Below, piece by piece: positions 3,651 through 53,775 of a stretch of 64,000 bases of DNA. The DNA comes from Plasmodium brasilianum. Taxonomy: Eukaryota; Apicomplexa; Aconoidasida; Haemosporida; Plasmodiidae. Position 1 is the first letter of the stretch; each line of letters opens with the position of its first letter. The stretch is from contig NW_027122924.1 in NCBI RefSeq assembly GCF_023973825.1, positions 78,501 to 142,500 on the forward strand, written 5' to 3'. Made by a program: the position numbers and the translations under genes. A model generated the notes under the pieces. It made no database searches and had not been told where the DNA came from. It worked only from the letters and a program-made list of their open reading frames with translations.

Positions 3651-4410
3651 TTTAAGAGAATATTTATTCGTATAAAAAAGAACAAAACTTGGCCCGTAAG
3701 TATTTACATGGTGTCACGATTTTCTAGCTACCCATTATTTGTTTTATCGCATGCTTAGGCATGTTTTATTTTTTTTAGCACACGTTTCGGCAGATTTGAT
3801 TATTTTTGTAACATGTTCAGGTAGATTTTATTTTTTTTATTACATGTTCAGGTTGATTTTATTTTTTTTATTACATGTTCAGGTATATTTAATTTTTTTT
3901 TGTAACATGTTCAGGTAGATTTTATTTTTTTTATTACATGTTCAGGTATATTTAATTTTTTTTTGTAACATGTTCAGGTAGATTTTATTTTTTTTTTGTA
4001 ACATGTTCAGGTATATTTTATTTTTTTTTTTGTAACAAGTTCAGGTAGATTTTATTTTTTTTAATACATGTTCAGGTAAATTTTATTCTTTTTAATTCAT
4101 GCTCAGTTAAATTTTTTCTTTTTTTAAGAACCACCCAAAGCTGAGTAAATAATTTATGTAGATGAAACATTGCGCCGTATTATTATTTTAGTTTCGGAGT
4201 TTTTGTGTATTTCGCATCTTTTAAGCGTAACGTGCCTTTCGCTCTTCCGTCCTTTTGTCAATGTTGATGCGGCATTTACGTGTAAATTTTTTACATACAT
4301 ACGTAAATACGTACATCCCAACACTGCATTTGGCCCCTCCTTTCGTACAAACTTCCTAGCTTCAGAGCTACTTTTGCTAAGAACTTTTAGCATAAGTACA
4401 GGAGAATAAG
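3651..4410. other. Intergenic region between divergent genes, with minisatellite
   Basis: Head-to-head spacer between RsfS (minus) and the NSUN5-type gene (plus), so it is a shared promoter region. It is dominated by the tandem array listed separately. The last 270 bases are unique and less AT-rich. Short overlapping ORFs in both directions at 4154-4417 show no recognisable protein. Confidence 0.6.
3755..4115. repeat. Minisatellite, about 31-bp unit, in a bidirectional promoter
   Basis: About eleven degenerate copies of a unit built around ACATGTTCAGGTAGATTTTA followed by a T-run of 6-10. Copy length varies mainly through the T-run. The conserved core ATGTTCAGGTA recurs at roughly 30-bp spacing. 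It lies between two divergent genes, so it could influence both, though this is only positional inference. Confidence 0.8.
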
Positions 4411-6324
4411 ATGTCATTTATTTACAGAAAAGCTGCCCAAATGTTATCTAGGTGCGTTCAAGGAGAAGGGATAAAAGAAGTTTTGTTTAAAAAAGAAGAT
4501 AAATCCATTAAAAAGGTATAAAAAGGAAAACATAAAGTTCATTTTGCCTGTGCATATACGTTTATATGTACGTACATATGTACGTATATATGTACGTATA
4601 TATGTACATATATATATGTTGGATTATATATGTACACGTTCATGCGCATATATATAGGCGTTTATGAGCCCAATGCATACAAGTAAAAGAAATGGGATTT
4701 TCCCCTTTTGCAGCTGTACGCCATACTATACAAAGCGCTAGAGGACCTGGATGTGCTAAACAGAATATACAATATTTATTTGTTAAAAATATGCAAGAAC
4801 AAATTTTTGGGAATTATTCTTCTAAGTGTATTAGTTCAGAGGAATCAAATCGACGGAGGGGGGAAGTTAAGACGAGAAATTATGAAAAAAGAAAAGGCTA
4901 TTCTACAGTTTTACCACCATTTAAAAGGATTGGTAAGTAGCATAAGCGGTAGCGGTAGTAACGTGTTAAAGGAAACAAAAGAATTAACGAAATATTTCGT
5001 CATATATAATGATAGCAAAAAAAGTGCAGAGGAATTAAAAAAATGGTTAGTAATAGAAGAAGATGAGGATGTAAAAGGTCTGTACAAAATTAGGAATGAT
5101 AAAGTAAAAAGGTTAATAGCTAGTCGTATATATATGAAAAATAAAATAAGAATAATTGATAAAACGTCATGTTTAGTTGTTCAGGCAGGGAATATAAAAA
5201 GAGGAATGGTTATTGTAGATATATGTTCTTCTCCAGGTAGTAAGGCTATCTGTAGTCTTATCTCGTTAAAAAAAAAAGGATTTTTAATATGCATTGAAAA
5301 AAATAAAAAAAGATGTTATACTTTATTGGTAGAAATTTTAAAGAATGATGATTATATTGGGCCCTATACTGATGAGCATTTTGGTGAAGACACAAAATTT
5401 CATCTTAACCAAAAAAATTTTTTTATTAATTTTAAAGACATATATATATATTACATAAAACATAAAAATAATGAATTAATTATTAAAATATTTAACTGTA
5501 ATTTTCTCGACTTATCTTATCATCATTTTGAGGAATTTGGCCAAATAGACGTTGTATTTGTTGATCCTTCTTGCTCCTCAAGTGGAATGCCGGATTTTGC
5601 GTATAAGGAGAACATGCGACGTGTGTTCCCCTGCGCTAGGGGTGAAGAGAAGTATAGAGGTGGTGAAAGCTGCAATGATAGCTGCAATGATAGCTGCAGT
5701 GAAAGCTGCAGTGATAGCCGCAATGATAGCCGCAATGATAGCCGCAATGATAGCCGCAACGATAGCCGCAGTGATAGCCGCAATGATAGCCGCAACGATA
5801 GCCGCAATGATAGCCGCAACGATAGCCGCAATGACGATGATGTTGGGACAGGAGGCCCAGTGGAGGCAGAAGTATCGGGAGCATTAATCAAACCAAATAG
5901 TAATGATGCCGCCGAATGGGCAAATGTAAGCAATAAAAAAGGTACATGTAAACGTGAAATAATAGATTATAATATTTATGATGATGTGTCAAAGGGACAA
6001 ATTCCAAGGGTACCCCACACTTTTGTAGATAAGGTAAAAAAATTGTGTGAGTTTCAAAAAAATATATTAAACCACGCTTTGGTAAATTTAAAAACAGCTA
6101 AAACGTTTATTTATTCAACTTGCTCTTTTTTTGAAGAAGAAAATGAACAAGTTATACAAAATGCGTTAAGAAGTAATGCAAATTTTTCTTTAGAAAAAGC
6201 AGGAACAGATAAATTCCTTTTCAATAATGGACAGTATGAATTTTCAAATAAATGCGTGAGAACCTTCCCTGGGAGAGACTCCTGTAGGGGCATATTTATT
6301 GCGAAGATATGTCGCACGGGATAG
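4411..6324 (+). CDS. NSUN5/Rcm1-type 25S/28S rRNA (cytosine-C5)-methyltransferase
   Basis: Two exons: 4411-4515 (35 codons) and 4714-6324, phase 0, intron GTATAA...TTTTGCAG; 571 residues. The fold is a NOL1/NOP2/Sun methyltransferase. Visible motifs: SAM-binding motif I near residues 200-215 (VDICSSPGSKA, family V-x-D-x-C-A-x-P-G-x-K), motif IV near 319-329 (DPSCSSSGMPD, with the Cys that contacts the target base), and motif VI near 501-506 (YSTCSF, catalytic Cys). The DPSC-S-G-S-G-M signature and the N-terminal layout fit NSUN5/Rcm1 better than NSUN1/Nop2. NSUN5 methylates one cytosine in large-subunit rRNA in the nucleolus. An Asn-Asp-Ser-Arg repeat insertion (about residues 353-409) sits just after motif IV. 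The start ATG gives MSFIYRKAAQMLSR, the typical helical start of NSUN5 proteins. High confidence for the family, good for the subfamily. Confidence 0.9.
5665..5834 (+). repeat. Coding 12-bp repeat (N-D-S-C / N-D-S-R) in the NSUN5-type gene
   Basis: About 14 copies of the 12-base unit GATAGCCGCAAT and its variant GATAGCTGCAGT. It encodes alternating NDSC then NDSR tetrapeptides. It interrupts the catalytic domain after motif IV and must loop out of the fold. The array stays open on all three plus frames and on the minus strand, so several ORFs there are shadows. Confidence 0.9.
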
Positions 6325-6392
6325 TTCAATAAAGGGTTCATTAAGGAAAGCAACCAGTGGAGCACAAGTGATATGTTTACATCATTTTGTAT

Positions 6393-6427
<35 letters not shown>

Positions 6428-6975
6428 CTCATGAACGTACATTTGTTAATTTTCAATCCCCTGTATGCTTTATTTTTTTTTTAAAAAAAGAAGGGAAAAA
6501 GTTTTTACAAAAAATGGCTGATGAACTACAATTTTTGAGTAATTTTTTTTTTTTTTTTTTTTTATTTAATTTTTTTAATATTAATAAGGGTGAAAAAAGA
6601 AGGCTACTTGTTACTCGATCTGACGATACGAAAGTTCGTTGGAACGGTAAAATGGGAAAAGGCTAAACAGGGAAGCGAATAAACGGATAAGGTCTTGTGT
6701 ATCTCATGTAAGTTACATGAACCCAAGCATATGCATATTTATTAACATGTGCACCTATGTAAATACTCTCATATATGTATATACTATATGCACGAGCGAA
6801 ATGGAGGAGTTTTGTTTTGGTTTGTTCTTCTTAATTTTTGGTGGCATGTATCGAGTTCAATGACTTATGTGCTATGTTTTCAGTGTTTGCATGGATTTTT
6901 TAAGTACTGATTTATGGTGCACTGAGGAGGTGAATCGGTATATATGAGCGGTTTTTCTGCTTCCCACTTCCAACT
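6325..6975. other. Convergent 3' spacer with T-tracts
   Basis: Tail-to-tail spacer between the NSUN5-type gene and the dynein intermediate chain gene. It holds two long poly(T) tracts (about 6391-6427 and 6542-6563). An ORF through 6373-6666 is phenylalanine runs from these tracts and is not supported as a gene. Confidence 0.6.
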
Positions 6976-9273
6976 TCAAACCATCTCCATGTCCACCTGG
7001 TCAGCCGGCACGCACTCGGCTTTCAATTTTTCAATTTTGCTGTCAAACTGAGTAACATCTTCAGCTCGGGGTTGATATATTTCGGTGGATGCATTCCATA
7101 GGGTCAAGCCCCCGTCTGAGTCAGCAGCAATGAGTTTCCTTCCATCGTATGACCAGGCAATTTTATTTGTTGATTTTTCCTGAACAGTGGTTTCAAAGAA
7201 AGAACATTCCATATCATAAGAGATGTTAAATAGTGTAATATTTCCGTTACTACTACATGCTGCAAATATGGATGGATGAGTTGGACTCCATTTAACATCC
7301 ATTAGATAATCTTCAAACGTGTTAAAAGTGAATAGTATATTTCTAGGTTGTTTTATACTAATTAATTTACATGTCCAATCAACTGAAGATGTTAATATGA
7401 GATCATTATGATCATTGGTACCTTCAATTAGTGGATGGAATTGTGTAGCTGTTAATGGACCATGATGAATATTATAATATTCAGTTATACCTACTTTGTT
7501 ACCATGTATTTGAGCTTGAAATAAAGATCCATCTTCTGCACCTCCATATAATGTGTTTATTTCTCCTTCTTGAAAAGAAAAAGAACAACAAGACACTTCT
7601 TTGTTTGCTCTTTTTAGATCTACTGTATCAGATGGATAGGTAAGCATATTCAAAGACCAGTTACATAATCTGCCATCTGTGTCTACTGTTACCAAATTAT
7701 GAGCATTTTGTGTACCAATAACTTCTGCACAATAAATTGGATGTAAATGACCTTGCGAGGTCAGGTAAGTTTTTTGTATCGGTTTTTGGTTAGCTCGAAT
7801 ATCCCATAAAACAACATTACCTGTATAAGTACCTCCTATTATTAAATGAGGATTAAATTTATTAAACAATGTTGTACATACTGCATGTTGAGATGTGAAT
7901 ACATATTCTGGTCTACTATTCATTGTTATATTCCATACTAAAATATATCCATCAGGATCTGCATAATTACACACATCGGACAATCCGTAAGAAGCTAAAA
8001 ATAAATCGCTATATATATGAGATGTTTTTACATCTGTGATTGGTCTTCCATTTGTATATTTTTTACAGTAATATGTATTAAGAAATTTTAATTTTTCAAA
8101 ACTTTCAGATTCATCGCTTATATCTTTTGCTACAAAATCGAAGGTGGAATTAAACATGTCTTGTTCACCTAAGGACCGTTCTATTATTTTTGAGCTATTC
8201 TGGATAAATTTCATGTAACTGCTGCTCTTAAGTATGCTTTTCCTTTTCTCTTCGTCTACAAAGATGTTGTTCTTTCCTTCTTTTAAGCAGTTCTTTGGCT
8301 TTCCCTGGTTTGAGAGCCTTTGGTGGGTACTGCTCTTATCGCTCTTGATGTTGTCTGCGTCCTGTTCGAGGTCCTCTTCCCCATCTGCTTCCCTGTTCGA
8401 CACCCTGTTCGCCACCCTGTTCTCGTCAACCTCTTCACTTCTGTATTCGTTTCTCTCTTCGCTTTGTTCCTCGCCTCCCTCTTCAGAAGAAAAATCCTCT
8501 TTTTCTGATAGCTTCTTCTTTTTCAGGACAACATTTTTTTTACTTGACATGGTCATGTTACTATGTAATTTCCCCATTTTATTGGTACTATCCTTTTGGG
8601 CTCCCGTATTTGAGAAGAGAGTAGTCATCTTCCCTTTTCCGTTCCTTTGATGATAAGAAGTAGTAGTAGCGGCAGCAGTAATAGTGGCGGTAGTCGGGGC
8701 AGTCGCGGAACCACTATCAAACATATTGACCTGAGTGGACTTATCAAAATTAATAATATTTTTCTGTTTCACGTTAATAACCTTTTCGTATTTCACCTTG
8801 TTAATTTTAAAATTAAAATTTTTCCCCGATGAATTGTTTTTTTTAAAAAGGAAAGAGTGATCTGTGTGTTCTTCTAAAGAGCTACTGTTATTGTAGAACT
8901 GGTCTTTGGTAAGGCTCCCATTAATTATATGGTTATCTAAATATATCCTATCATTACTACCATTTAGTTGTTTTTTAAATAGTACATTTTCTTGGTCTTC
9001 TTTTTCTAAGGATTCTAAGAAATTCTTTAGCATTTGATCAGGATCAGGGTACTCATCACCGCTAATATTTCTTGTTATGCTGCTATCCCTTGTTATATTG
9101 CTTTCTTTTACTTCATTACTCATTAAAATGCTTTCGTTTGATCTCTTTAACTCTTCCAAGTATTTTTTCCTCTCCTCAAGCTCTATCCTCTGTGCACACA
9201 ACTTGTTTTGTAGTTGTATTCGTTCTTCCTCGTTAATAGACTTCAAGGCATCATATTCGGCGGTGTTCTCCAT
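6976..9273 (-). CDS. Cytoplasmic dynein intermediate chain (WD-repeat)
   Basis: Single-exon minus-strand gene, 765 residues with the start chosen at 9273 (MENTAEYDALKSINEEER). It binds the dynein heavy chain tail and light chains, and links the motor to dynactin. The N-terminus (residues 10-50) is a charged single alpha-helix/coiled coil as in DYNC1I proteins (EEERIQLQNKLCAQRIELEE). Residues 60-400 are low complexity, Ser/Glu/Asn-rich. From about residue 430 to 745 there are WD repeats: GYILVWNITMNSRPEYVFTS, NVVLWDIRANQKPIQKTY, SSVDWTCKLISIKQPRNILF, FAACSSNGNITLFNISYD and DSDGGLTLWNAS are clear blades. The sequence D-I-R-x-N-x-x-P-I-Q and the W-S-P-T-H-P-S-I-F-A motif are characteristic of dynein IC. 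The open frame continues 120 codons upstream through an 18-bp minisatellite (RKYIHT repeats), which I regard as 5' untranslated. The roadblock light chain of the same motor is encoded about 9 kb away. Confidence 0.92.
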   Translation of the reverse strand: MENTAEYDALKSINEEERIQLQNKLCAQRIELEERKKYLEELKRSNESILMSNEVKESNITRDSSITRNISGDEYPDPDQMLKNFLESLEKEDQENVLFKKQLNGSNDRIYLDNHIINGSLTKDQFYNNSSSLEEHTDHSFLFKKNNSSGKNFNFKINKVKYEKVINVKQKNIINFDKSTQVNMFDSGSATAPTTATITAAATTTSYHQRNGKGKMTTLFSNTGAQKDSTNKMGKLHSNMTMSSKKNVVLKKKKLSEKEDFSSEEGGEEQSEERNEYRSEEVDENRVANRVSNREADGEEDLEQDADNIKSDKSSTHQRLSNQGKPKNCLKEGKNNIFVDEEKRKSILKSSSYMKFIQNSSKIIERSLGEQDMFNSTFDFVAKDISDESESFEKLKFLNTYYCKKYTNGRPITDVKTSHIYSDLFLASYGLSDVCNYADPDGYILVWNITMNSRPEYVFTSQHAVCTTLFNKFNPHLIIGGTYTGNVVLWDIRANQKPIQKTYLTSQGHLHPIYCAEVIGTQNAHNLVTVDTDGRLCNWSLNMLTYPSDTVDLKRANKEVSCCSFSFQEGEINTLYGGAEDGSLFQAQIHGNKVGITEYYNIHHGPLTATQFHPLIEGTNDHNDLILTSSVDWTCKLISIKQPRNILFTFNTFEDYLMDVKWSPTHPSIFAACSSNGNITLFNISYDMECSFFETTVQEKSTNKIAWSYDGRKLIAADSDGGLTLWNASTEIYQPRAEDVTQFDSKIEKLKAECVPADQVDMEMV

Positions 9274-27250: not shown

Positions 27251-27600
27251 ACGATTCAATTTTTGAACATTTTAAATAAAATTTTTTTGTTGATATATTT
27301 TCGCACAATTTTGAAAGAGTAATAGGAGGAATAATTATCATTAGTTAACATTTCTTTCTCCTTCCAGTGAAAATATAAGAATAGCATACGTGTATTATTA
27401 CAACGTATTTATTTTATTTTTTTGCAATTCTGTACTCTTGTGATAAGGTGTGCAGTACATTGTTTCGCGTGTGTAAATATTTTTTTTTTATTTTTTTTTT
27501 TTTTTTACATTTCTCTTTTCTCTTTTCTCTTCTCTCTTCTCTCTATACTTTTTTTATCTTTTTTCTCTGTACCGTTCCTTCCATTTTTATTTATTTTATT

Positions 27601-27637
<37 letters not shown>

Positions 27638-27640
<3 letters not shown>

Positions 27641-28012
27641 CCTTCACTAAAAGAAGAAGTGCCGTTTGAAAATAGAGTAGCAGAGACACACAAAATTAGA
27701 GCAAAATATCCCAACAGAATTCCAGTGGTATGTGAAAAAGCTAGTAGATCAAACTTACCCGAAATAGAAAAAAAAAAATTTCTTGTGCCTATGAATATGT
27801 TGGTAGGGGAATTTAAGTTTATTCTTCATCAGCATATAAATCAGAGTGCTTATGGAAGTAACATGAAAATGTTTCGAGAGAAAACTATATATTTGTTTGT
27901 TAATAATATTATTCCCAAAACAGGTTTGTTAATGCAAGAATTATATGAAATGTATAAGGATGAGGATGGTTATTTGTATCTTGAGTATAGCTGTGAAAGT
28001 TGTTTTGGGTAA
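27638..28012 (+). CDS. ATG8: Autophagy-related protein ATG8
   Basis: Single exon, 124 residues. Ubiquitin-like ATG8/LC3 fold: RVAETHKIRAKYPNRIPVVC, then KFLVPMNMLVGEFKFILHQH (the hydrophobic-pocket strand, family K-Y-L-V-P-x-D-L-T-V-G-Q-F), AIFLFVNN-type segment IYLFVNNIIPKTGLLMQELY and YKDEDGYLYLEYSCE. It ends in CESCFG with the glycine as the last residue, so no Atg4 cleavage is needed before conjugation to phosphatidylethanolamine. In Plasmodium, ATG8 coats the apicoplast and is needed for its inheritance. The longer open frame begins far upstream in T-rich DNA; the start chosen gives MPSLKEEVPFENR and the exact family length. A long (AT)n stretch ends 3 bases before the ATG (27609-27634). 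Confidence 0.97.
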
Positions 28013-30784: not shown

Positions 30785-33700
30785 ATGTTTAAACTTTGTT
30801 CCTTTTTCATGTTTCTCCCATTGCTTATATGTGTTATTACATTGTACTTACCACTAGTTAACAATAAAAAAAATGTATGTACTAGTAACAGTCGACTGAG
30901 CTTGCAGCATTACATAAGTAATAACACGTGTAAAGGAAGTATAAAAGGTTGTAATAGATTACAAAGAAAGGTATTCTGTCGTAGTAAATTACATGGAAGT
31001 GATACCAAATATGATAAGTCAACTTGCAATGAAACATTGCTAGACATACTAGGGAGTAAAGTGAATTACATAAAAAACATCCAACGGCTTTATGAAGATT
31101 TAAATAAATTAAATGAAAGAGAAGATAAAATAAAATACCTAATAAGGGAAAATATTGAGACCTGTAAATATAACTATTTACCACTAACCAAAAAAAAAAA
31201 ATTTACTAATAAGAATATAAGAGCCTTTACAAAAGAAAAAAAAAGATTTTACATCAATCAAGTGAGAGATTCTGTTTATTATAAATATATAAACAGGTGT
31301 AACTCCAATGTGTATTTAGCAATAGATATAGTAAAAAAAAAGAAAAGGAAATGGAACAGGAAAGATAAGGAAGGCAATCTAGTAAACGTCAAGCATTTAC
31401 GCACCGTTGGGGACTCGCTGCATGATAATGAAGAGAAAGCAAATAATGATACACGTGCAGAAGGGGAGGAAGAGAAGGTGGAGGCTTCATCTATCTTAAT
31501 GGACATCATCAATGAACATAATAATGACAATAAGGATGTTCAGGAATTCATTAGTAAATGCAGTTTTTCAACAAAAAATAGATATTTTATTACCATAGAC
31601 GGGTTTAGCGACAATCTAGTGTTGTGCTGCTTCCTTCATTGCATATTAAAAGGCATACAAAGAGTTGACCTAAATTTTTTTCTAAAAATGAATATTAAAA
31701 AAATTGCAGATAATTTGAAAAACATGTTTACAATACATTTTAACACAGAACATGTTGTCGATTATGTATATAAATATATAAGCAATTTTTTTTTAAGCGG
31801 GGATGGTGCTAAGATGGGAAATGGTAGTAATAGCAGCGGCAGTATAAGAAGCAGCGGCAGTAGAAGAAGCAGCTGCAGTAGAAGAAGCAGCGGCAGTATA
31901 AGAAGCAGCGGCAGTAACAACAGCAGTAGTGAGGAGCTGTGTCGGGCATTTACCCCCCGCAGCAAGGTAGACTGTTCCATCAGTGATAAGCTGAAGGGAC
32001 AATATGAGGTTATTCCTTCACGTTTGAGTAATAGTATGCCCATTTATTATACATTAAAGAACAGTATGAAAATACACCCATATCCTAGAATAGCACACAT
32101 GCTTAGTGGAGGGGTTGACTCGCTGATGGCTTTGCTTTTACTAGAGAAAAAAAAATTTTACGTTGATAATTTCTTTTTGAATTACAATAATTATGACTGT
32201 AGTAAGAATGACTTAAGGTATGCAAGAAGCATTTGTGGAAAGAGAGATAGAAATTTATTTGTTATTAACATCAATGAGGAGTATTTTAAAAAGGTGTTGA
32301 TACCCATGCTAAGGAGTTACTCAGAGGGGAAAATACCTAATCCGGACATTATGTGTAATAAAAAAATAAAATATAAGTATTTCTTAAGTGTTATAAGAAG
32401 TTTATATAAACAAAGAGTAACACCTTTCAATTATGATTACATTTCAACTGGTCATTATGCTATGATAAGCACAAACGATTCGTTCAATGCGAACAACGTT
32501 TTTAACAATGACTTTCCGTATGTATATGATAAAGACGAAGGAGAAATGGAGCATAAGGTGAAGAAGCAAACGGGGAAGAAGGGTAAGCAGCAGGAGAAGA
32601 TGTTACAGAAAGAAGGAAAAAGGTACAAATTAATTGTTAGCCATGATAACATAAAAGACCAGACGTTCTTCTTGTCCTCCTTCTCAGAGAAGCAGTTATC
32701 CAAATTCCTCTTTCCCTTATGCATGCACAATAAAAGTGATATTAGAAATTTTATGAGAAATGAAAATATTGACAACTACAATAAGAGAGAAACCAGGGGG
32801 CTCTGTCTCTACGGAAATGTTAACATGCACATGATGCTCAAGTATTATTTTTTGGGTGGATACTCGAAAACAGGTGAGAAAGCTATTCAGGTGAGTGCAA
32901 AAGATAAACCAGTTGACCAGGTCAGTCAACAAGTGATAAACACACCTGACCAGGTCAACCAACAAGTGGCTAAAGCACCTGACCAGGTCAGCCAACAAGT
33001 GGCTAAAACGCCTGACCAGGTCAGCCAACAAGTGGCTAAAACGCCTGACCAGGTCAGCCAACAAGTGGCTAAAACACCTGAACAGGTCAGCCAACAAGTG
33101 GCTAAAACGCCTGACCAGGTCAGCCAACAAGTGATAAACACACCTGACCAGGTCAGTCAACAAGTGATAAACACACCTGACTTCTTCACCTTCAAGGAGA
33201 AGTACATTTCTCTGTTTAAGTTAAACTACGTTAATTATATCATAAACGTGGATGAAGGAATTGTAATTGATAGAAATAACGATATACATTTATATGCTAT
33301 TGGACAGAACAAGCATATAACTAATTTTATACATGATATTTATAATGAGCGCATAAAAAAAAAAAAAAAAAATTTCTTTTCATCCTGTCAGTGGACCGTT
33401 GTTTATAAAAAGATGATAAAAAAAGAAAATAATAAAGTTGTGGAGAACTTTATATACGTGACAAGAGATTACACTGATAAAATGTTTACAAGGATAAGAA
33501 GAAAATGCAAACTGAGTAAAGTGAAATGGATTGAGGGGGAACTACCCATGTGCTTGGAAAAACAAAAAAGGGGGGGCAAAGAAGAGGGGAAGAGAGAAAC
33601 AGCGGATCAAGAAATGGAAAAGGATGAAGAGAGGATGCAAAAAGTGGAGGACAAAACACAGGATAAAATAATATTTGTCAAGGTCAGGAATAATGAAAAA

Positions 33701-33988
33701 ATAAAAAAGGCAAAAATAATGTTTACCTCGGACCATTCCGTATATTTAAAGTTACAACATAAGGATGCTGGTTTATCACCTGGTCAGATGATTACTTTTT
33801 ATTTCCCATTTATTATAAAAAAAAAAGGGAGAGGCACGAAATATATTTATTCCTTAAAGAAGTATGCACATCGACCAATTTATTATCATTGTATTGGTAC
33901 ATCCAAAATTAGTAATCAGTACCTGGACGTTAATTTATATCAAAGAATAATGAAGATTCACAGAGATAACAACTTGACTATTTTTTAA
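30785..33988 (+). CDS. mnmA: tRNA-specific 2-thiouridylase MnmA, apicoplast
   Basis: Single exon, 1067 residues. MnmA puts sulfur on U34 of tRNA-Lys/Glu/Gln. A signal-type N-terminus (hydrophobic [19 protein letters not shown] at residues 7-25) followed by a basic, Asn/Lys-rich stretch suits apicoplast import. The ATP-pyrophosphatase P-loop SGGVDS lies at residues 439-445 (HMLSGGVDSLMALLLL). The two catalytic cysteines are in NPDIMCNKKIKYKYF (Cys near 524) and RGLCLYG (Cys near 673, family G-x-C-F/L-x-G). Other conserved segments are STGHYA and DQTFFLSSF. Residues 725-800 carry an 11-residue repeat; the C-terminal part (KLQHKDAGLSPGQMITFY) is the typical beta-barrel end. Length is about three times that of bacterial MnmA (about 360), due to insertions. 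MnmA of P. falciparum is essential for apicoplast maintenance (Plasmodium work), and its neighbour here is ATG8, which also serves that organelle. Confidence 0.96.
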   Translation: MFKLCSFFMFLPLLICVITLYLPLVNNKKNVCTSNSRLSLQHYISNNTCKGSIKGCNRLQRKVFCRSKLHGSDTKYDKSTCNETLLDILGSKVNYIKNIQRLYEDLNKLNEREDKIKYLIRENIETCKYNYLPLTKKKKFTNKNIRAFTKEKKRFYINQVRDSVYYKYINRCNSNVYLAIDIVKKKKRKWNRKDKEGNLVNVKHLRTVGDSLHDNEEKANNDTRAEGEEEKVEASSILMDIINEHNNDNKDVQEFISKCSFSTKNRYFITIDGFSDNLVLCCFLHCILKGIQRVDLNFFLKMNIKKIADNLKNMFTIHFNTEHVVDYVYKYISNFFLSGDGAKMGNGSNSSGSIRSSGSRRSSCSRRSSGSIRSSGSNNSSSEELCRAFTPRSKVDCSISDKLKGQYEVIPSRLSNSMPIYYTLKNSMKIHPYPRIAHMLSGGVDSLMALLLLEKKKFYVDNFFLNYNNYDCSKNDLRYARSICGKRDRNLFVININEEYFKKVLIPMLRSYSEGKIPNPDIMCNKKIKYKYFLSVIRSLYKQRVTPFNYDYISTGHYAMISTNDSFNANNVFNNDFPYVYDKDEGEMEHKVKKQTGKKGKQQEKMLQKEGKRYKLIVSHDNIKDQTFFLSSFSEKQLSKFLFPLCMHNKSDIRNFMRNENIDNYNKRETRGLCLYGNVNMHMMLKYYFLGGYSKTGEKAIQVSAKDKPVDQVSQQVINTPDQVNQQVAKAPDQVSQQVAKTPDQVSQQVAKTPDQVSQQVAKTPEQVSQQVAKTPDQVSQQVINTPDQVSQQVINTPDFFTFKEKYISLFKLNYVNYIINVDEGIVIDRNNDIHLYAIGQNKHITNFIHDIYNERIKKKKKNFFSSCQWTVVYKKMIKKENNKVVENFIYVTRDYTDKMFTRIRRKCKLSKVKWIEGELPMCLEKQKRGGKEEGKRETADQEMEKDEERMQKVEDKTQDKIIFVKVRNNEKIKKAKIMFTSDHSVYLKLQHKDAGLSPGQMITFYFPFIIKKKGRGTKYIYSLKKYAHRPIYYHCIGTSKISNQYLDVNLYQRIMKIHRDNNLTIF
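31818..31932 (+). repeat. Coding Ser/Gly/Arg repeat in MnmA
   Basis: Twelve-to-fifteen-base units AGCAGCGGCAGTA/TAAGA encode GSIRSSGSRRSS-type peptide before the P-loop. The array is open on the minus strand as Leu/Pro or Ala/Ser-rich ORFs, which are shadows. Confidence 0.88.
32910..33178 (+). repeat. Coding 33-bp repeat in MnmA (11-residue unit)
   Basis: Eight copies of an 11-residue unit QQVAKTPDQVS or its INT variant (QQVINTPDQVS). Unit 33 bases, so the frame is preserved. It sits between the catalytic domain and the C-terminal domain. The array is open on the minus strand too. Confidence 0.95.
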
Positions 33989-43943: not shown

Positions 43944-46900
43944 ATGGTGAATGATGAGATCAATAAAAACATAGAGGTAATAGATGATGCATATTTTTGC
44001 AAAACTGTAAAAGCAGAATTACAGGTATGAAGACGCATTTTAAGTTGTATATATGTATGGAGAGAAATGAGTAAACGTGTATAATATGCTATTGTTTGTT
44101 TGTATAGACAACATGTACGTATGCGTGTGTTATCTCAGTATGCATGTGCAAGTGCGTACGTGCTACAAGACCATTCCTACACCCGCTTACAATGCATGTG
44201 TGCTACCATGTTACACGTGCAGTTATATATAAAATAAAATTAAATAATACTAAAATAATGAAGTAACAGAGTAACAGAGTAATAGAGTAATAGTAAAACA
44301 AAGTAATAGTAAAACAAAGTAATAGTAAAACAAAGTAATAGTAAAACAAAGTAATAGTAAAACAAAATAACAGCATAACGAAATAATAGAATAAAATAAA
44401 AAAAAATAGCGAGTTGTGTTAATGTGCGTAAATAGGTACACAGTTTTACCATTTAAAAGTTGATACATTTTTTTTTTTTTTTTTATTTTAAATCGAAACG
44501 AGTCAAGTCTTATATTATATGAACGCACATTATAGCTTTGCTCTAACAACATATAAGGTGTTAACCCGTTACCCAGTGTTAATTACATTCTGCTGGCGCA
44601 GTTCTGATATGAATAGCAATTTTTATATGCACATTTACACGTACACATATTGTAAAAATATGTACGCTCAAATGTAAACATATACGTATGTATTTTTTTT
44701 TTTTTTTTAAAGAATTTAACGGAAGAGTATAAAAAGAAAATAAAAAAAAATTTTTTATTTGAGTATTTGTTCAAGATTGAAGTACTCGTGGTTTCGTTTT
44801 TCCTCGCCCCATTATTAAGTGGAATATTACTACTAAAAGGTATAGCGTCAAGGAAATAGTTTACGAGGAAAAAAGGGCCCAACCTTTTTCTAGCCATATA
44901 TAGATCCATATAGAACCATTTCACTTATTTTAATTTATTTTATTATTTTTTGAAGATAGCGATATTATCAGCACACATTATGTAACGTCTTTGTTTGTCC
45001 TCCTATCTCTGTTGCTAGTTCTCTTTACATTCCTTTATTATGAAATAGAGGAAGCTCAAGTAATGAGGAAATGCACCACCACCCCCCTTTGTTTTTTTGT
45101 TACAGATGTGTACATGTATATATATATGTGGGGGTGAACATTACATTTTGACAGATCCCCTTCTGTTAATCGCTAACAGGTGTGCGTATTTGCGCAGCAG
45201 AACTTGTAGCTATACATATCATTGCGAGTGCATGTTTGTATTAATTTGTCTTTGTCAAATTGAAGAATTGCAGAATTGCAGCACTGTAGCATCACTGCAC
45301 TATCTTAACCTTTTTATTTAGTCTTTTTTTTTTTTTTTTTTTTTTTAACGTAATTATATTATTTTTACTCATTTATAGAACAACGAATGTCTAAACAAAA
45401 TAGATGAAGCCGAAAAGATACTGTCACCAAGGAATTTTATAAAAAATAAAAAAGATGATATCCATTTTAATTATTTATGTAATTCTAATTTTATTTTTAT
45501 CTTGAGGAACAAAAAATGGGAGCTCTTACCGACCAACTTAGTAATATTCATATATATTGACTCGATTATACTACTACTTCTCCCAAATGAGCAATACTTG
45601 AAGTGTGTTCTATATTGCCTGCTCGTTGAATAAGTATCACAACCTATGTCTGACGGCATATTCGAGTGTAGGAAGTAACGCTAAACTGCAACTTCGATGT
45701 GTGCATAGCAGCATACATAGGTGCATACGCTCATATATATATGCGCACGTACATGTATGCATACATATGTATGTTTTCGTTCACGTAGCTGATAAAGCAG
45801 GACGTCTTTCTGCTGCGGGCAGGAGACCTCATTCCGTGCAGATGTGTAGAGTACAACATTAATAATAACGGTATAACATATATGCCTATGCCTGTGTCTA
45901 TATGCCTGTGTTTATATGCCTGTGTCTATATGCCTGTATCTATATGCCTATATCTATATGCCTGTGTCTATATGCCTGTATCTATATGCCTATATCTATA
46001 TGCCTGTGTCTATATGCCTGTGTCTATATGCCTGTATCTATGCCTATGCCTTTTTGTTTTTTCATTTTGTCTACATGGGGCGGTGGCATTCATCATTACA
46101 CAGATTCATGTATCATTACGCGAGTACGTGCCATTGTGTACAACTGTTCACACACATATACACTTCTTAATTTACACGTACGACTGGCAGAATATGGAAG
46201 GGAATACGAAAAGCATGAGGTATTTATGCCGATGGACAAATATAAAATTAGTGTTAACTTGTTAACGAAATATTGCAAAGATGAAAAGAGGGAATACCTT
46301 CCGTCTTTCCACCTATATTCATTTGTATCATATGATAACGTATCTATTTCTACTATTAAAAGATATATTGAAGATAAAACAAGTAAAAATAAAAATTCGA
46401 AAAATAAAGCAAAGTTGAGGAATGTTATACTAACGGAAAGGATACATAGGTTTTACATTTACACATGGACCATCCTGTTCTTTATATCAAGTTTGTCGAC
46501 TGTTATAAGGTAATATTGTGTCCACACGCGTACCCCCCAACGGAGTGGACTCAATGATGGCAGCGCTACACTAACACAAACGTGTATCACCTCATCCGCT
46601 AATATAATTAGTTACATATTCTTGCCGTTTCATTGATGCATCGTTATGTAACTTCTTCATATATTTTTTTTTTTTTTTTAAATTATTTCCCTCAGCCTTT
46701 TGGACTTAAGAAAGGATATAGGGAAGATCCCTCATTTCGTCGTTATTTATTTTTTAATATATAATGTGTTGATGTCTATTACTGCCTTACCTTTTTTCCA
46801 CAGGTAGGTAAAGAGAAGTATATGCGGCAGCCCATTTGGTAGAACACTGCGCATTCATGCAAAAAATAAAAAAAAAAAGAAGATAATTAAAATAAAAAAA

Positions 46901-49900
46901 AAAAAAAGAAGATAATTAAAATAAAAAAAAAAAAAAAAATAATTAAAAAAAAAAAAAAAAATAAAAAAAAAAAGAAGATAATTAAAATAAAAAAAAAAAA
47001 AAATAATTAAAATAAAAAAAAAAATATGCTTTAACGTAAATATGATGATGCAATGTACACTCATAGTGAAATACATAAGACGTCATCCCCATCCTTCTCA
47101 TTTTTCAGGATATTTTCCGAGTTAATTTATGGCTATTGCTCTTCACTAAATATGATATATAAGGATTATTTTAAGAATGCTACGAATTATGAACAGAGAG
47201 AGTTTTCATCTTCTTTTGATTTTTCCTCGACGACAGAGGATAGCTCCTATGTTAATAAAAAAAAGATCGGTTTGTTCTATACCCTGAAGAGTATATTTAT
47301 GTTGATCATAAAGGTGAGGCTCGCGTTGGTGCATACATATAAGTGTGTGTATGCATATGCTTGTATATATATTCTTCTATGTACTCTTATGTATGTATGT
47401 GTACGTCGCAAGGACAAAAATTAGTGTACCGCTTTTCCTCTTTCCAAGGGCATAAAGATAGACAAGTGTTACTTGAACATCCTGAGCGACTGCTCTGTCT
47501 TGTGCTTCGTGGACAGCAGTAGCATATTATTTGATAGTAACCATAGTATCAAGGAAATCTGTATTTATAATTACTTGAACAATAAAAAAGACGTTTGTTT
47601 AAATAGTAGTATGAATGCTATTCCAAAAAATTATAACTACATTTTAACCATTATTGATGTTTTTATGGATAACAAAAGTATGTACGCCTATCAACGAATC
47701 AAGAATTTAAAAATTCTGCATTCCTTATTCTTAATATCATACTATACGCAAATACCCAAGTATATAAAGTAAGTCACAATGGATATTGGCTGTTCAGCGA
47801 TCGTCCGTTCTGCACCCTGATACGTTCTACTGTATTTTGTATTTATTCGTGTAGCTGCTTCGTTAGGTGCTTATTATGCATTTAATGCGTTTTTTATTCT
47901 TTTCTTTTTAATTTTTCTTTTTAATTTTAATTTTTCTTTTTAATTTTAATTTTTCTTTTTAATCTTTTAATTTTTAATTTTTATTTTTTAATTTTAATTT
48001 TTTAATTTTTAATTTTTAATTTTAATTTTTAATTTTTAATTTTAATTTTAATTTTAATTTTTAATTTTAATTTTAATTTTTAATTTTAATTTTAATTTTT
48101 AATTTTAATTTTTAATTTTAATTTTTAATTTTAATTTTTAATTTTAATTTTTAATTTTAATTTTTTAATTTTTTAATTTTTTTTTTTTGCATGAACGTGC
48201 ACTGTTATTCTATGTAGGCTCCTGGATGCGTTTCAGAACCATATATTGAATTACATGAACCAAGGAGATTGTAGTTTTCTTTATATTTGTCTGTGTGATA
48301 TTGGACATATGTCTAATTCCTATAATAAGTTTTTATTTCACATGTAAGAAAAAAAAAAAAAAAAAAAAAAAAAGTATAAAAGGGAGACGCGTAGGTAGTA
48401 GTGTGAGTTTTAAGTTTGGGGTGTTCCATCTGCTCGTAACTGCATCTATGATTGCATTTGTAACTACAGCCATTACTGTAACTGCTCTACATTACTTCTT
48501 CCTTTTCGTGTCCTTCATTTTTATGTCCAATTTCATGTATGTATTTATGTTTTCGTTTATGTGTATGCATCCCTTCTTGCGCCTACCCTCCTCTCCCATT
48601 TCCCCTTGATGAAGGCTCTTCTTTTGCATAGAAAACAAAAGCGATTATGAGTTATACAAAAAAAAGAACACAGAACTAAAGAAACATAAAAAATCAGTTG
48701 TACCTAGGGGAGAGTTACCCTATTACGTGTATGAAAATGAGGAAAAGGAAAACTCCCTAGGAATAAACATATATGATAATTTAATGAAAAGGGACAATTT
48801 TGTTTTTATTTTTATTTTATATGAAAAGAGGAAGGACAAGTACCACATGTTCTTGAAGGTTAGCAAACTTTTCTTCGCCTTCTGCGTTAGAACAGTATGT
48901 TGTATGTTGTATGTTGTGTGCGCGTGTGGTTATGCAGTTATGAGGTTATTCTGTTAATTATGCTATTGATATGTGCCACTATGTTTATGTTTTATATTTT
49001 ATATTTTTTTTTTTTTTTTTTTGAGCAGGGCCAGCTGGACGCCCTCCTTAGCAAATGCATGTTTTATTACGATGGGAAAATAATAAAGAAATTAAAAAGG
49101 ACAAAAAAAAAGGTGTTGAGAATTTTAAATATCCAGTGGATATCATCAGGTGAAATACATACTACTATTTCGTTTCTACATATTTTTTTAAACTGAGTAT
49201 ATGTGATCGGTGTTACCATAGGTGCTATTGTCTAAGTTGTGTACCCTTCGCTTTGCTTTTTCCCCCTACACAATTTGCATTTTTTTTTTTTTTTTTTTTC
49301 TTTTTTCATCTTTACATCCATCCTTATTTTTCTGCTCTCATTCACTTAACTATCGTCCCCTTAGGCATAGAAAGCATATGTTTTGCGTATAGACCTCTAA
49401 GCAAGATCGAAGTAGAATATTTAAAACAAAATTTTAGCAAAAATATTTACATATTAACAATAAACAAAAGAAAGGTTTATAACATAAAGAACTTTTACAA
49501 TGAAAAATCGTTTCCTGTAAAGGAAAATCAGAAGTTTCTTTCTCACTTGTTGTCGACCAGCATCTTCATAGGTTAGCAGGGAGGAGATTATGAATACCAG
49601 TATATACATTATATATATATATATATATACCTATAAATATATGTGTGCATATAGGTTGGGTGCTGAAGGCGAAAGTGGAGAAAAAAGAAAGGGATTATTA
49701 ATAGCGCCTTTATTTACTAATTTACTTTATTTGTTTTGTTATATTTTTTTTATTTGTTTCCCTATTTTTTAGGAAACTCGGCAGTTAAACTTCTAACAAG
49801 CAACGAAATACAAACCCGAATAAACGATTTTTATGATGTAACACTATCTAAAATATAAGAATATACATAAGTATGAGAAGTAGTTTGTACGAAAGTATAT

Positions 49901-50161
49901 AACACGAGTAATATTTTTTTTTTTTTTTTAACTGTATGCTTTCCTCCAGTCAGGAATCAGATTTGTGCATTTTAGTAAAACGGATCAAGCAAACACAAGA
50001 AATGTAGCAAACTTATTAGGAATGGAAACGAATTGGAATACGTCCATTTCGTTGAGTCTGAATGATAAGTTAGGGCACATACAGTAAAAGTGATAGTGAC
50101 AACGTGGAATCTTCTATATGACCCGTCGAAATGTGCACACATGCACATCCATATGTACACC

Positions 50162-50219
<58 letters not shown>

Positions 50220-50239
50220 TACACACACACACACACACG

Positions 50240-50320
<81 letters not shown>

Positions 50321-50351
50321 GCACACATACACACACACACACACACACACG

Positions 50352-50399
<48 letters not shown>

Positions 50400-51748
50400 T
50401 ACATACATACATACATACATACATACTCATGTGGACGTCATTACACGCGTACCCCTTTGCCGCTTACCCACTACAGGCCGAGCTTCAAAAATAGAGACGG
50501 AAAAGTTGTTATCCCTAGTGGCATAAATAACATAAAGACACACATAGAGGAAGTAAGAAAAAGAGGGAAAAAATGTAGCAGCATAGGACAAAACGAAAGA
50601 AAATAAATAAAATGAAAAAAATTAAGCTGAGTAAAACAAAATTTTTGCAGCGATTTAGTTGTATGACCTTGACCTCAAAATCTTTTTTTTTTCTTTTTTT
50701 TTTTTTTTTTTTCATTTTACTTTCTTTTGTGTATATAACAATTCTGCACATATGTTTGTAACTGCCATTTTCCCTATAACCAGGTGGATGACATTCCTCT
50801 TCGCGTTTCGTCCTACTCAGGTTGTAATCAATTTAATACAGCGGAAATGATCAAAATTTTACTTGTATGAAAAAAAAAAAAAAAAAAATCTATACTGAAT
50901 TTCTTACCACTTGGAGGGAGGGGAGTTTTCCATTTTTTCATAACATGATATACACATGGCTCTATGAATACGTAGCATATACTCATAGATAGATACATAC
51001 GTACACACGTACTAACGTGTAGATATACATATCTGTACATGGATACACGCGGACGTGCTTACATGCATGTGCATTTACCATCTCAGGAGAACAACGAGAT
51101 TATTACTTGCGTTGGGAATAGCTTGAACTGTGAGAACTTTGGAATTTTCAATTTGTGTAATTACTCTATATCTGTATTACTTCCTTTTAATAATGTGTGT
51201 AAGGACTGCTATGGAAAAAGAGGAAGGAGCAGTCCCTTTGAGGAACCGTCAGCACAACAAAACCCGCTGATCACATACTCTTCCTTCGTAAATAGTTTTC
51301 CCTGTAATTTGATCATTGAGAAGAGCTGTTTGGGTGTGCAAAAAAAAAAAAATAAATAAATAAATAAATGCAGAAAAATGGAAGATACATAACAGATGCA
51401 TGGTGCTTACAAAACAGATGCATGGTGCTTACAAAACAGATGCATGGTGCTTACATAACAGATGCATGGTGCTTACATAATGGACATGTAAATGTAGAAC
51501 AACACCAAAAAGTGGTGTATCTTTTTTTTGCGGCCATGTAAACATTTTCTCAACTTCTTGTCACCTTTTTTTTTTAGATATGTCTCAAAACATAATGGAA
51601 ATCGTTTATAAATTATTGAAGAATTCAAGAATACACAAAAAGAATGTGTACTTGACAATTTTTTATTTTTATTTTTTTTATTCTCAATTGTCCTTTTTAG
51701 TATTCATAATTTCTGTTTTTTTCCTTCCTCCCTTTATATCCGTAATAA

Positions 51749-51794
<46 letters not shown>

Positions 51795-53224
51795 AAAAGA
51801 AAAAGAAAAAGATAGATACATGAGTGTCCAGGTGGCTATGATAGCGTACACGTGTTTACAAATATGTGCGTAGACCTTACAAGTGCCTCGATGAACATGC
51901 ACGTAAGTATATACATGCATACGTACATATATACATGCATACGTACATATATACATGCATACGTACATATACACATGCATATGTTTACCTTGACAACGAT
52001 CTGCAGGTTGTTGATTTCCTCCTTTTTATTCTTTTAATAATTCCCTTGCTTGCAATGTCCCTTTTAAGTAATAACAACAACTCAACCATAATGAACGATA
52101 TACCGGATAAAGTTATCACAAAGGAGTTTTTAGTAAACAAGCTGGTAAGGATATTCCTCAGCCGCTAATGTGTGTGCGCATTTTCGTGCGTGCATTTGCA
52201 TGTGGACACACATATATGTATACATCCATACATGCCGCCAATATCTATAATACATATGGGTATATATATATATATATATATATATGTGTTCCCCTGAGTA
52301 GTGAACGAGTCCTGAGAACATTTGGGCGAATACGTTCGTTCGTTCTCCTTCGTTTGATCTAAAGAAACATTGTACGAGGAATAAACAAAATATGTTCTTG
52401 TGTGTACATACATAAATATATACATGTGGACACACATTAAGCATATATATAAATATATGTATATCTTTATTTTGCTCATTTCTTAGTTTTTTTTTCTGAT
52501 AAAATGGATACCCCTGCTAGTGTTTTCCACCATTCTGTCTCTATATTATTTGCATTTAATAAACAAAGCATTTGCAAATAAATATGTGATAAGCGGTCAT
52601 ATGGATGCTCAGATGTCAAGCAGCTTGAAAGAAAATTCTATGAAAAATATAACTCATCATTGCTCCCAAGTTTTACTTATAAGTAGGGAAAAAATCGATG
52701 CAACAATAAATGTATATGGATAGTTATACAATTATATATACATACTTACACGCATAAATGTTTTACTACTCATATGAAAAATGGACGTACGCCCCGAATG
52801 TGCCGCATGAATATATATATGCACATTTATACCTAAGCATGTGAACCTTATCAGTGGCTTCGTTTTTATAACCCCCTTTCGCACACACACATACGCATAC
52901 GGTTACAAATGTAGCTGCACACATGATAATATGATCATGTATCCATCTTGCGTCTTCACCTTAATAGAATCCTTCTACAAGTGTCAAGTGCTACTTCACA
53001 CCTATTCTACAAATCAGCCGAGCGGAAAACTTAGTATGGCAGCCGTGATGATAAAGGAAGCGCAAATTTTTTTTTTTTTCTTTTTTTCTCTTTTTTTTTT
53101 CATTTCTTCTTTATCCTTCAGCGACAAGTTAGAGAAGAAAAGAAGAAAAACAAAAGAATAAATAATAAAAAAATATATATCAACCAATTATGGAGCAAAT
53201 AGAGTGGCAATTCGATAAAACATG

Positions 53225-53261
<37 letters not shown>

Positions 53262-53775
53262 GCACAAATTGCCGTTTTTAAAAAATTTTTTTTTTTTTCC
53301 CCTCTTCCTTTTGCATTCCTTCTCAGGTTTGAATCCTTGTTCAAATGGAGTTGTATACAAAACTCGAAAACATATTTTTCATGTTTATTTGTCTTTCTAA
53401 TTTTAAGCTTTTTATACGTAGCACTCCGCATACGTATGCTCCCTCCCTATTACATAAAGCAGGTACTGTACGCTCACAGGAATAAAAGTTTTTTATTTTG
53501 CTCCCATTTCACATTCGTTTACATTTCCGTTTGGCAAAAATTTTCCTTAATTATGAAGATAAATCTTTTTTTTTTTTTTTTTTTTTTTTTTTCTGTACAA
53601 CCATTCATATCAGTACCCGGATATAACCCTCATAGTGCTGATGCTCATTTTCAACGGAGTTATATTAGTAACAAATGAAACGATAAAAAAAGTGGAAGAG
53701 AAAATACAAATTAATCGACAGAAATATTTGAAGGTTTTATTTGGTACTCGTTTGGGGATGTGGAGTCCAAAATAA
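43944..53775 (+). CDS. TMEM94-like P-type ATPase homologue, 24 exons
   Basis: Exons: 43944-44024, 44713-44839, 44956-45059, 45379-45540, 45789-45870, 46191-46509, 46696-46803, 47109-47313, 47449-47768, 48218-48343, 48615-48858, 49029-49149, 49365-49571, 49773-49837, 49950-50083, 50477-50552, 50784-50864, 51087-51333, 51578-51741, 52007-52144, 52487-52682, 52968-53127, 53327-53462, 53614-53775. All 23 junctions keep phase; 1254 residues. Ten membrane spans fit: two in exons 2-3, two in exons 6-7, six in exons 19-24. The actuator-type segment is at residues 150-180 ([12 protein letters not shown]), the KGxxDxLLxxC nucleotide motif at 626-635 ([11 protein letters not shown]), and GIRFVHFSK with [14 protein letters not shown] at 758-790. 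The end ([11 protein letters not shown] then [10 protein letters not shown]) matches TMEM94 to the last residue. D418 is in VDSSSILF, not DKTGT. TMEM94 is a proposed ER magnesium transporter in mammals; the role here is inferred. Exon 10-12 splices were chosen by phase and the K-G motif. Confidence 0.88.
44265..44382. repeat. 16-bp intronic array
   Basis: About six copies of AAAACAAAGTAATAGT preceded by shorter AGAGTAAT units, in intron 1 of the TMEM94-like gene. The minus-strand LLYYSVTL ORFs are shadows. Confidence 0.88.
45884..46046. repeat. Intronic 12-18-bp array (TATATGCCTGTGTC)
   Basis: About nine 14- to 16-base copies around TATATGCCTGTGTCTA and TATATGCCTATATCTA, in intron 5 of the TMEM94-like gene. 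All three plus frames read Met-Pro-Val-Ser-Ile-Cys-type peptides; these are shadows. Confidence 0.85.
46868..47025. repeat. AAAATAATTA/poly(A) intronic repeat
   Basis: Units of GAAGATAATTAAAATAAAAA with A-runs of 9-17 in intron 7 of the TMEM94-like gene. No coding signal. Confidence 0.85.
47900..48190. repeat. TTTTAATTTTTAA intronic array
   Basis: About 290 bases of almost pure A/T made of TTTTTAAT and TTTTAAT units in intron 9 of the TMEM94-like gene. It contains only one cytosine in its core, giving one of the most AT-pure stretches of the window. Confidence 0.93.
50166..50402. repeat. (CA)n microsatellite
   Basis: About 240 bases of CA dinucleotide repeats, broken by CG and CATA variants, in intron 15 of the TMEM94-like gene. 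Poly-His/Thr and poly-Cys/Val ORFs on both strands come from it. Confidence 0.97.
51388..51479. repeat. 22-bp intronic tandem repeat
   Basis: Four near-identical copies of a 22-base unit (ACAGATGCATGGTGCTTACA then TA or AA), in intron 18 of the TMEM94-like gene. The units are unusually GC-rich and well conserved for this genome, which sets them apart from the surrounding AT repeats. Confidence 0.9.
51748..51792. repeat. 45-base poly(A)
   Basis: Pure poly(A) just after the donor of exon 19, followed by GAAAAA units. Homopolymer length may be unreliable. Confidence 0.9.

Follow-up and report, generated by a model that had tools for sequence, protein, structure and literature searches.

The TMEM94 family and its Plasmodium member

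Two groups are at odds over whether human TMEM94, also named ERMA, is an ATP-driven Mg2+ pump. One group detected neither ATPase activity nor Mg2+ binding, obtained nearly the same structure under each of six conditions, and left autoinhibition possible (PMC12134183). The second group reported ATP-dependent Mg2+ uptake by human ERMA that needs D427, and that paper also gives DKQGI and GSSANL for the human protein, which has no TGES, and proposes or discusses the first Pro of PILP, Q1110 and GMN for the Mg2+ site (PMC13322241). Here, we analyze a TMEM94-like gene of Plasmodium brasilianum located in a 64 kb window (the whole stretch of DNA analyzed, 64,000 nucleotides), which corresponds to positions 78501-142500 of contig C17 in a genome of 31.4 Mb. 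The encoded protein keeps the Asp of the phosphorylation site and lacks the catalytic motifs of P-type pumps.

The gene is, judged from its sequence, the Plasmodium orthologue of TMEM94 (ERMA) and encodes a degenerate P2-type ATPase fold. A PDB sequence search matched the product to human TMEM94 (9yyd) with an E-value of 6.4e-30, the homology spanning the P and M domains, and no other PDB family was found at E<=1. The resemblance extends to the last residues, as a preliminary description of the locus had stated, with LGMWSPK at the C-terminus vs human LGMNSP. The product also contains the family-specific P-domain core (IRFVxFS, WNxxIxL, PxGI, DxxPLxVS), most columns of which are invariant or nearly so. 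The P. vivax orthologue, whose database record is already named TMEM94, was found to have the fold of human TMEM94. Profile searches were less informative: Pfam detected no P-type domain in the product or in the P. malariae record P0001; among the 18 Plasmodium proteins found by the homologue search, 16 carry PF13246 in the protein database, a tag that our own Pfam scan did not reproduce. The P-type model TIGR01494 gave 38 matches in the genome, none of them on C17, did not match P0001, P0006 or P0009 at E<=10, and matched weakly one Babesia, one fungal and one oomycete relative. The homologue, PDB and Pfam searches were queried with a 1,205-residue product, which uses another end of exon 22 and falls 44 residues short of the final length. 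Its closest homologues are P. malariae and P. brasilianum proteins, and all 22 genome matches of the TMEM94-like protein lie on C17, indicating a single copy.

Loss of the catalytic motifs

At the phosphorylation site, D418 (codon 47512-47514, exon 9) is followed by S-S-S-I where P-type pumps have DKTGT, which bears out the preliminary observation that the Asp is kept while Lys-Thr-Gly is replaced by Ser-Ser-Ser. The degenerate hinge described for exon 18 was likewise found; it starts at 51108 with residue 857 (862 in the earlier numbering) and contains GNSLNC in place of GDGxND. The product contains no TGES and no TGE at all, and the motif-III Lys is also lost in Plasmodium TMEM94. As both the phosphorylation-site and hinge motifs are missing, we agree with the earlier judgement that canonical P-type chemistry is unlikely. 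In the same genome, the 38 TIGR01494 matches group by position into 11 places, nine of which carry both DKTGT and GDGxND.

That the missing motifs are a prediction or sequencing artefact, or that the gene is a pseudogene, is scarcely credible. Database gene models do differ between records, P. malariae P0001 being without exon 14 and P0002 without most of exon 19. Against this, the 23 introns are all GT/AG, the spliced frame is open to its end, and DSSSIL is also found in the records of P. malariae and P. brasilianum, so that DSSSI is not an assembly quirk; the site is similar in all 18 Plasmodium rows. The preliminary description had named as refutation an exon restoring DKTGT and TGDG. Strings of the types DK[TSQ]G, GDGxND and TGES are absent from all six frames of the window and such an exon thus finds no support.

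The same description had presented the gene as the clearest unusual system of the window, which overstates its peculiarity. GDGxND occurs in 0/157 TMEM94-family rows and the human hinge reads GSSANL (PMC13322241), so the hinge loss is a family trait that is already in print, as is the debate on pumping (PMC12134183). DK[TS]G was found in one and TGES in two of the 157 rows, with residue numbers that do not correspond to the sites. What goes beyond the earlier observations is that the Lys is lost throughout the genus, that the Asp is invariant and that an N-domain Lys is retained where the P-site Lys is lost. In Plasmodium the Lys after the Asp is lost in 18/18 rows, leaving one catalytic residue fewer than in the human protein; the third Ser of DSSSI is limited to 3/18 rows, 15/18 having Gly there. 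Since the Lys of DKQGI is missing in Babesia and stramenopiles too, it was not taken as defining the whole TMEM94 family.

Conservation across lineages and possible mechanisms

The family alignment contains 157 TMEM94-family rows and, as separate controls, four canonical Ca-ATPases. It was prepared from 171 proteins, of which these four were set apart and 11 with fewer than 1,000 residues removed, and it comprises the window product, 17 further Plasmodium, four Babesia, 13 stramenopile, 112 fungal (some classed as such by search rank only), seven arthropod and three unnamed rows. In the homologue searches, scoring was limited to the 7,989 and 7,990 candidates with the most words in common; a search with a mixed alignment yielded 25 proteins, mostly from Plasmodium, and another the best 120 of 301 matches, which are fungal if they carry a name. 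The alignment therefore covers no ciliate, dinoflagellate, coccidian, plant or vertebrate sequences, and human residues were taken from HMMER alignments and the two structure papers. For conservation scores five groups were weighted equally and the three unnamed rows excluded. The earlier suggestion to check the conservation of D418 was followed up: this column is Asp in 155/157 rows and the remaining two are gaps. Fully conserved are 21 of the 969 scored columns, including D418, D163 of the A domain (Asp in all 151 rows that have a residue there, the unnamed ones excluded), G627, which directly follows the N-domain Lys, S766, at the place taken by the Thr of TGD in P-type ATPases, and the hinge residue G859.

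In P-type chemistry the catalytic Mg2+ is bound by the Asp residues of the hinge and the gamma-phosphate by the Lys that follows the phosphorylated Asp; this P-domain position and the 'KG' position of the N domain both touch ATP in real pumps. The residue after the Asp is Ser in 16 and Asn in two of the 18 Plasmodium rows, Asp in the Babesia (4/4) and stramenopile (12/12) rows with D418, Lys/Arg in the fungal ones (111/111) and Lys in arthropods (7/7). The 'KG' position has Lys in Plasmodium (18/18) and Babesia (4/4), Arg in stramenopiles (12/13), Asp/Glu in fungi (101/112), Gln in arthropods (7/7) and His in human. Basic residues at both positions occur in 0/155 TMEM94-family rows vs 4/4 Ca-ATPases. 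Opposite charges are found in 118/155 rows, like charges in none, and the sign flips by lineage, with fungi pairing Lys/Arg at the P site with Asp/Glu, and Babesia and stramenopiles Asp with Lys/Arg. That the ATP-site residues lost differ between lineages fits a decay of phosphoryl transfer. A bolder, rather doubtful reading is that in TMEM94 proteins ATP was replaced by an inter-domain lock, in which a salt bridge would keep the N domain on the P domain in the absence of nucleotide and turn the pump fold into a switch; Plasmodium, with Ser/Asn and Lys, would then represent a weakened or re-opened form. As the rows stem from a handful of lineages and are not independent, the salt bridge is treated as a hypothesis only.

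We favor the reading, with a probability of roughly 60%, that the protein is a degenerate P-type ATPase without a phosphoenzyme cycle, whose Asp is kept for another role. With the hinge Asp residues gone and one or both ATP-site Lys missing in every lineage sampled, no aspartyl-phosphate would be formed and no pumping by the Post-Albers cycle would be expected. The cytosolic A, P and N domains, linked to the helix bundle, might then act as a scaffold that senses a ligand, a nucleotide or a partner. The protein would probably reside in the membrane of the endoplasmic reticulum (ER), and the retention of D418, of the motif-II-like S766 and of the P-domain core peculiar to TMEM94 could reflect that binding or structural role.

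Several points weigh against this. A dead site need not keep the Asp and the motif-II Ser, and N866, which adjoins the lost hinge and is nearly invariant (142/152), might replace an Asp. Human TMEM94 has an affinity for AMPPCP in the micromolar range (PMC12134183). Moreover, two weak P-type places on contig C12 carry neither motif within the stretches examined, and the within-genome contrast is therefore incomplete. Finally, with D427N human ERMA in liposomes Mg2+ accumulation was not detectable, whereas the unmutated protein showed ATP-dependent uptake (PMC13322241). The latter result also counts in favor of regarding the protein as an ATP-driven non-canonical Mg2+ pump of the parasite ER of the ERMA type, in which Asp418 is phosphorylated via residues other than DKTGT/GDGxND. 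Pumping is best supported by the conserved Asp, for which reason this possibility is given weight; the A-domain D163 is invariant as well, uptake by human D196K, altered at the corresponding site, was markedly reduced (PMC13322241), and the N-domain Lys is kept in apicomplexans (22/22 rows). We nevertheless consider such a pump unlikely, as even the Lys of DKQGI is gone in Plasmodium, ATPase activity was not seen by the other group (PMC12134183) and the human Mg2+-site residues vary.

This variation was followed by alignment to human TMEM94. The window product has TALP for PILP and GMW for GMN. The column of human P334, the first Pro of PILP, is Thr/Ser in Plasmodium (18/18), Cys in stramenopiles (12/13), Phe or Leu in Babesia and Pro in fungi (106/112) and arthropods (7/7); the second Pro is retained in Plasmodium and Babesia. 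For the Q1110 column the alignment is uncertain, transmembrane helix (TM) 5 being hard to align: it reads Tyr in eight, Gln in seven and Leu in one of the 16 Plasmodium rows with a residue, Gln in the window product, and mostly Ser, Ala, Thr or Phe outside Plasmodium. GMN corresponds to GMW in 16/17 Plasmodium rows with a residue, in Babesia (4/4) and in stramenopiles (12/13); it is retained in arthropods (7/7), and most fungi have His. As these residues vary outside animals, the human ERMA site model is not simply transferable.

TM4 of Plasmodium (46781-46803 and 47109) contains a His-Arg pair (LPFFHR; H327, R328) in 18/18 rows; at these positions the other lineages show a hydrophobic residue, Thr or an acid, then mostly Pro. 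These charges are unfavorable to a cation site and would suit a lipid-handling protein, whose cavity binds phospholipid that is moved or sensed without ATP. A buried lipid is described in each of the two papers on the human structure, and a positively charged cytosolic vestibule in one of them (PMC12134183; PMC13322241). We regard lipid handling as improbable, because no lipid transport was demonstrated in either paper (PMC12134183; PMC13322241, available part), the TM4 His and Arg are not common to other lineages and the TM4 alignment is loose in Babesia and oomycetes.

Gene structure and genomic surroundings

The 24 exons described before, among them exon 9 at 47449-47768, were reproduced by splicing at GT/AG sites in frame, with the sole stop at the end (Table 1). 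Two junctions were adjusted from relatives, which also fixed the end of exon 22. The previously given length of 1,254 residues holds if the exon-15 donor at 50083 is used; with the donor at 50068, adopted in the final model, the five residues LGHIQ are left out and the product has 1,249. The records of P. malariae and P. brasilianum contain LGHIQ; the five records shown of other Plasmodium species lack it. The Phe-rich segment of exon 22 is encoded by a long T tract resembling an intron polypyrimidine tract, and the database models P0002 and P0003 omit it. Intron 15 consists over most of its length (50165-50430) of long CA dinucleotide repeats.

Table 1. Exons of the TMEM94-like gene, in window positions
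Feature	Position	Strand	Basis
Whole TMEM94-like gene, stop included	43944-53775	+	splicing, homologues, single copy
Exon 1	43944-44024	+	splicing
Exon 2	44713-44839	+	splicing
Exon 3	44956-45059	+	splicing
Exon 4	45379-45540	+	splicing
Exon 5, A-domain, D163 codon 45801-45803 (= human D196)	45789-45870	+	splicing, alignment
Exon 6, A-domain region without TGES	46191-46509	+	splicing, motif search
Exon 7, TM4, TALPFFH vs human PILPLLF	46696-46803	+	splicing, alignment
Exon 8	47109-47313	+	splicing
Exon 9, pseudo-phosphorylation loop D418-S-S-S-I at 47512-47526	47449-47768	+	splicing, alignment
Exon 10	48218-48343	+	splicing
Exon 11, N-domain, ends at K626 (48856-48858), aligned with Ca-ATPase 'KG' Lys	48615-48858	+	splicing, alignment
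Exon 12, starts with invariant G627	49029-49149	+	splicing, alignment
Exon 13	49365-49571	+	splicing
Exon 14, left out of P. malariae database model P0001	49773-49837	+	splicing, relatives
Exon 15, P-domain GIRFVHFS; LGHIQ added with the alternative donor after 50083	49950-50068	+	splicing, relatives
Exon 16	50477-50552	+	splicing
Exon 17	50784-50864	+	splicing
Exon 18, degenerate hinge at 51108-51143	51087-51333	+	splicing, alignment
Exon 19, TM5 region	51578-51741	+	splicing
Exon 20	52007-52144	+	splicing
Exon 21	52487-52682	+	splicing
Exon 22, Phe-rich membrane segment	52968-53127	+	end set by relatives
Exon 23	53327-53462	+	splicing
Exon 24, C-terminal LGMWSPK and stop	53614-53775	+	splicing, alignment

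Among the ten open frames scanned by Pfam at 2307-42047, RsfS-like, RsmB/F methyltransferase, WD40 and ATG8 (27371-28009) domains were found, and further a tRNA methyltransferase/thiouridylase HUP domain (30785-33985); no transporter domain was detected in these frames. Elsewhere in the genome, contig C12 encodes on the minus strand of locus L039 (3831-8603) a flippase-like open frame of 1,591 residues (TIGR01652, E 1.3e-53) with PDB matches to phospholipid-transporting ATPase IIA and NEO1. Read by eye, its DKTGT is AKTGT, the catalytic Asp being replaced by Ala, and GNNVKD stands near the hinge position. On the same contig, the minus-strand frames 6473-8581 and 4026-6395 of locus L041 are PMCA-like (TIGR01517, E 5.4e-16 and 1.9e-5, respectively; PDB PMCA1, E 1.9e-7), with a phosphorylation site that seems, by eye, to be DIQRY. 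With TMEM94 included, this one parasite genome would encode three degenerate P-type folds. For P. falciparum, 13 P-type ATPases are counted in a 2025 paper (PMC12588512).

Comparison with known systems

The TMEM94 family, its degenerate hinge, the pump controversy and the name of the P. vivax orthologue are already known. Judged from our searches, what is new is the absence of the Lys across the genus, the pattern of reciprocal losses and the finding that the proposed Mg2+ site varies outside animals; no paper naming TMEM94 and Plasmodium together was found in a literature search that missed most subscription papers. The gene adds a conserved uncharacterized membrane protein to the parasite's inventory. 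Plasmodium, Babesia and stramenopiles constitute natural mutants, in which the Asp stays but its neighboring Lys and the leading Pro of PILP are replaced, and this variation at the disputed sites makes the pump question testable by cross-species rescue.

Compared with human TMEM94/ERMA (PDB 9jjk, 9jjo, 9jk3 and 9jk5; also 9yyd and 9ywq), which has DKQGI, PILP, GMN and an N-domain His, the parasite protein has DSSSI, TALP, GMW and an N-domain Lys. The TMEM94-like proteins of Babesia (P0019-P0022) are similar in that the Lys after the Asp is lost, the N-domain Lys kept and, in those shown, the LGMWSPK end present; they differ in having Asp after the nucleophile (DDVGL) and share 28-29% identity. 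With the P2A ATPases SERCA and PMR1 the parasite protein has in common a fold with A-, P- and N-like domains, the A-domain Asp of GD, the N-domain KG and the phosphorylation-site Asp, whereas the canonical DKTGT, GDGxND and TGES of these pumps are all missing.
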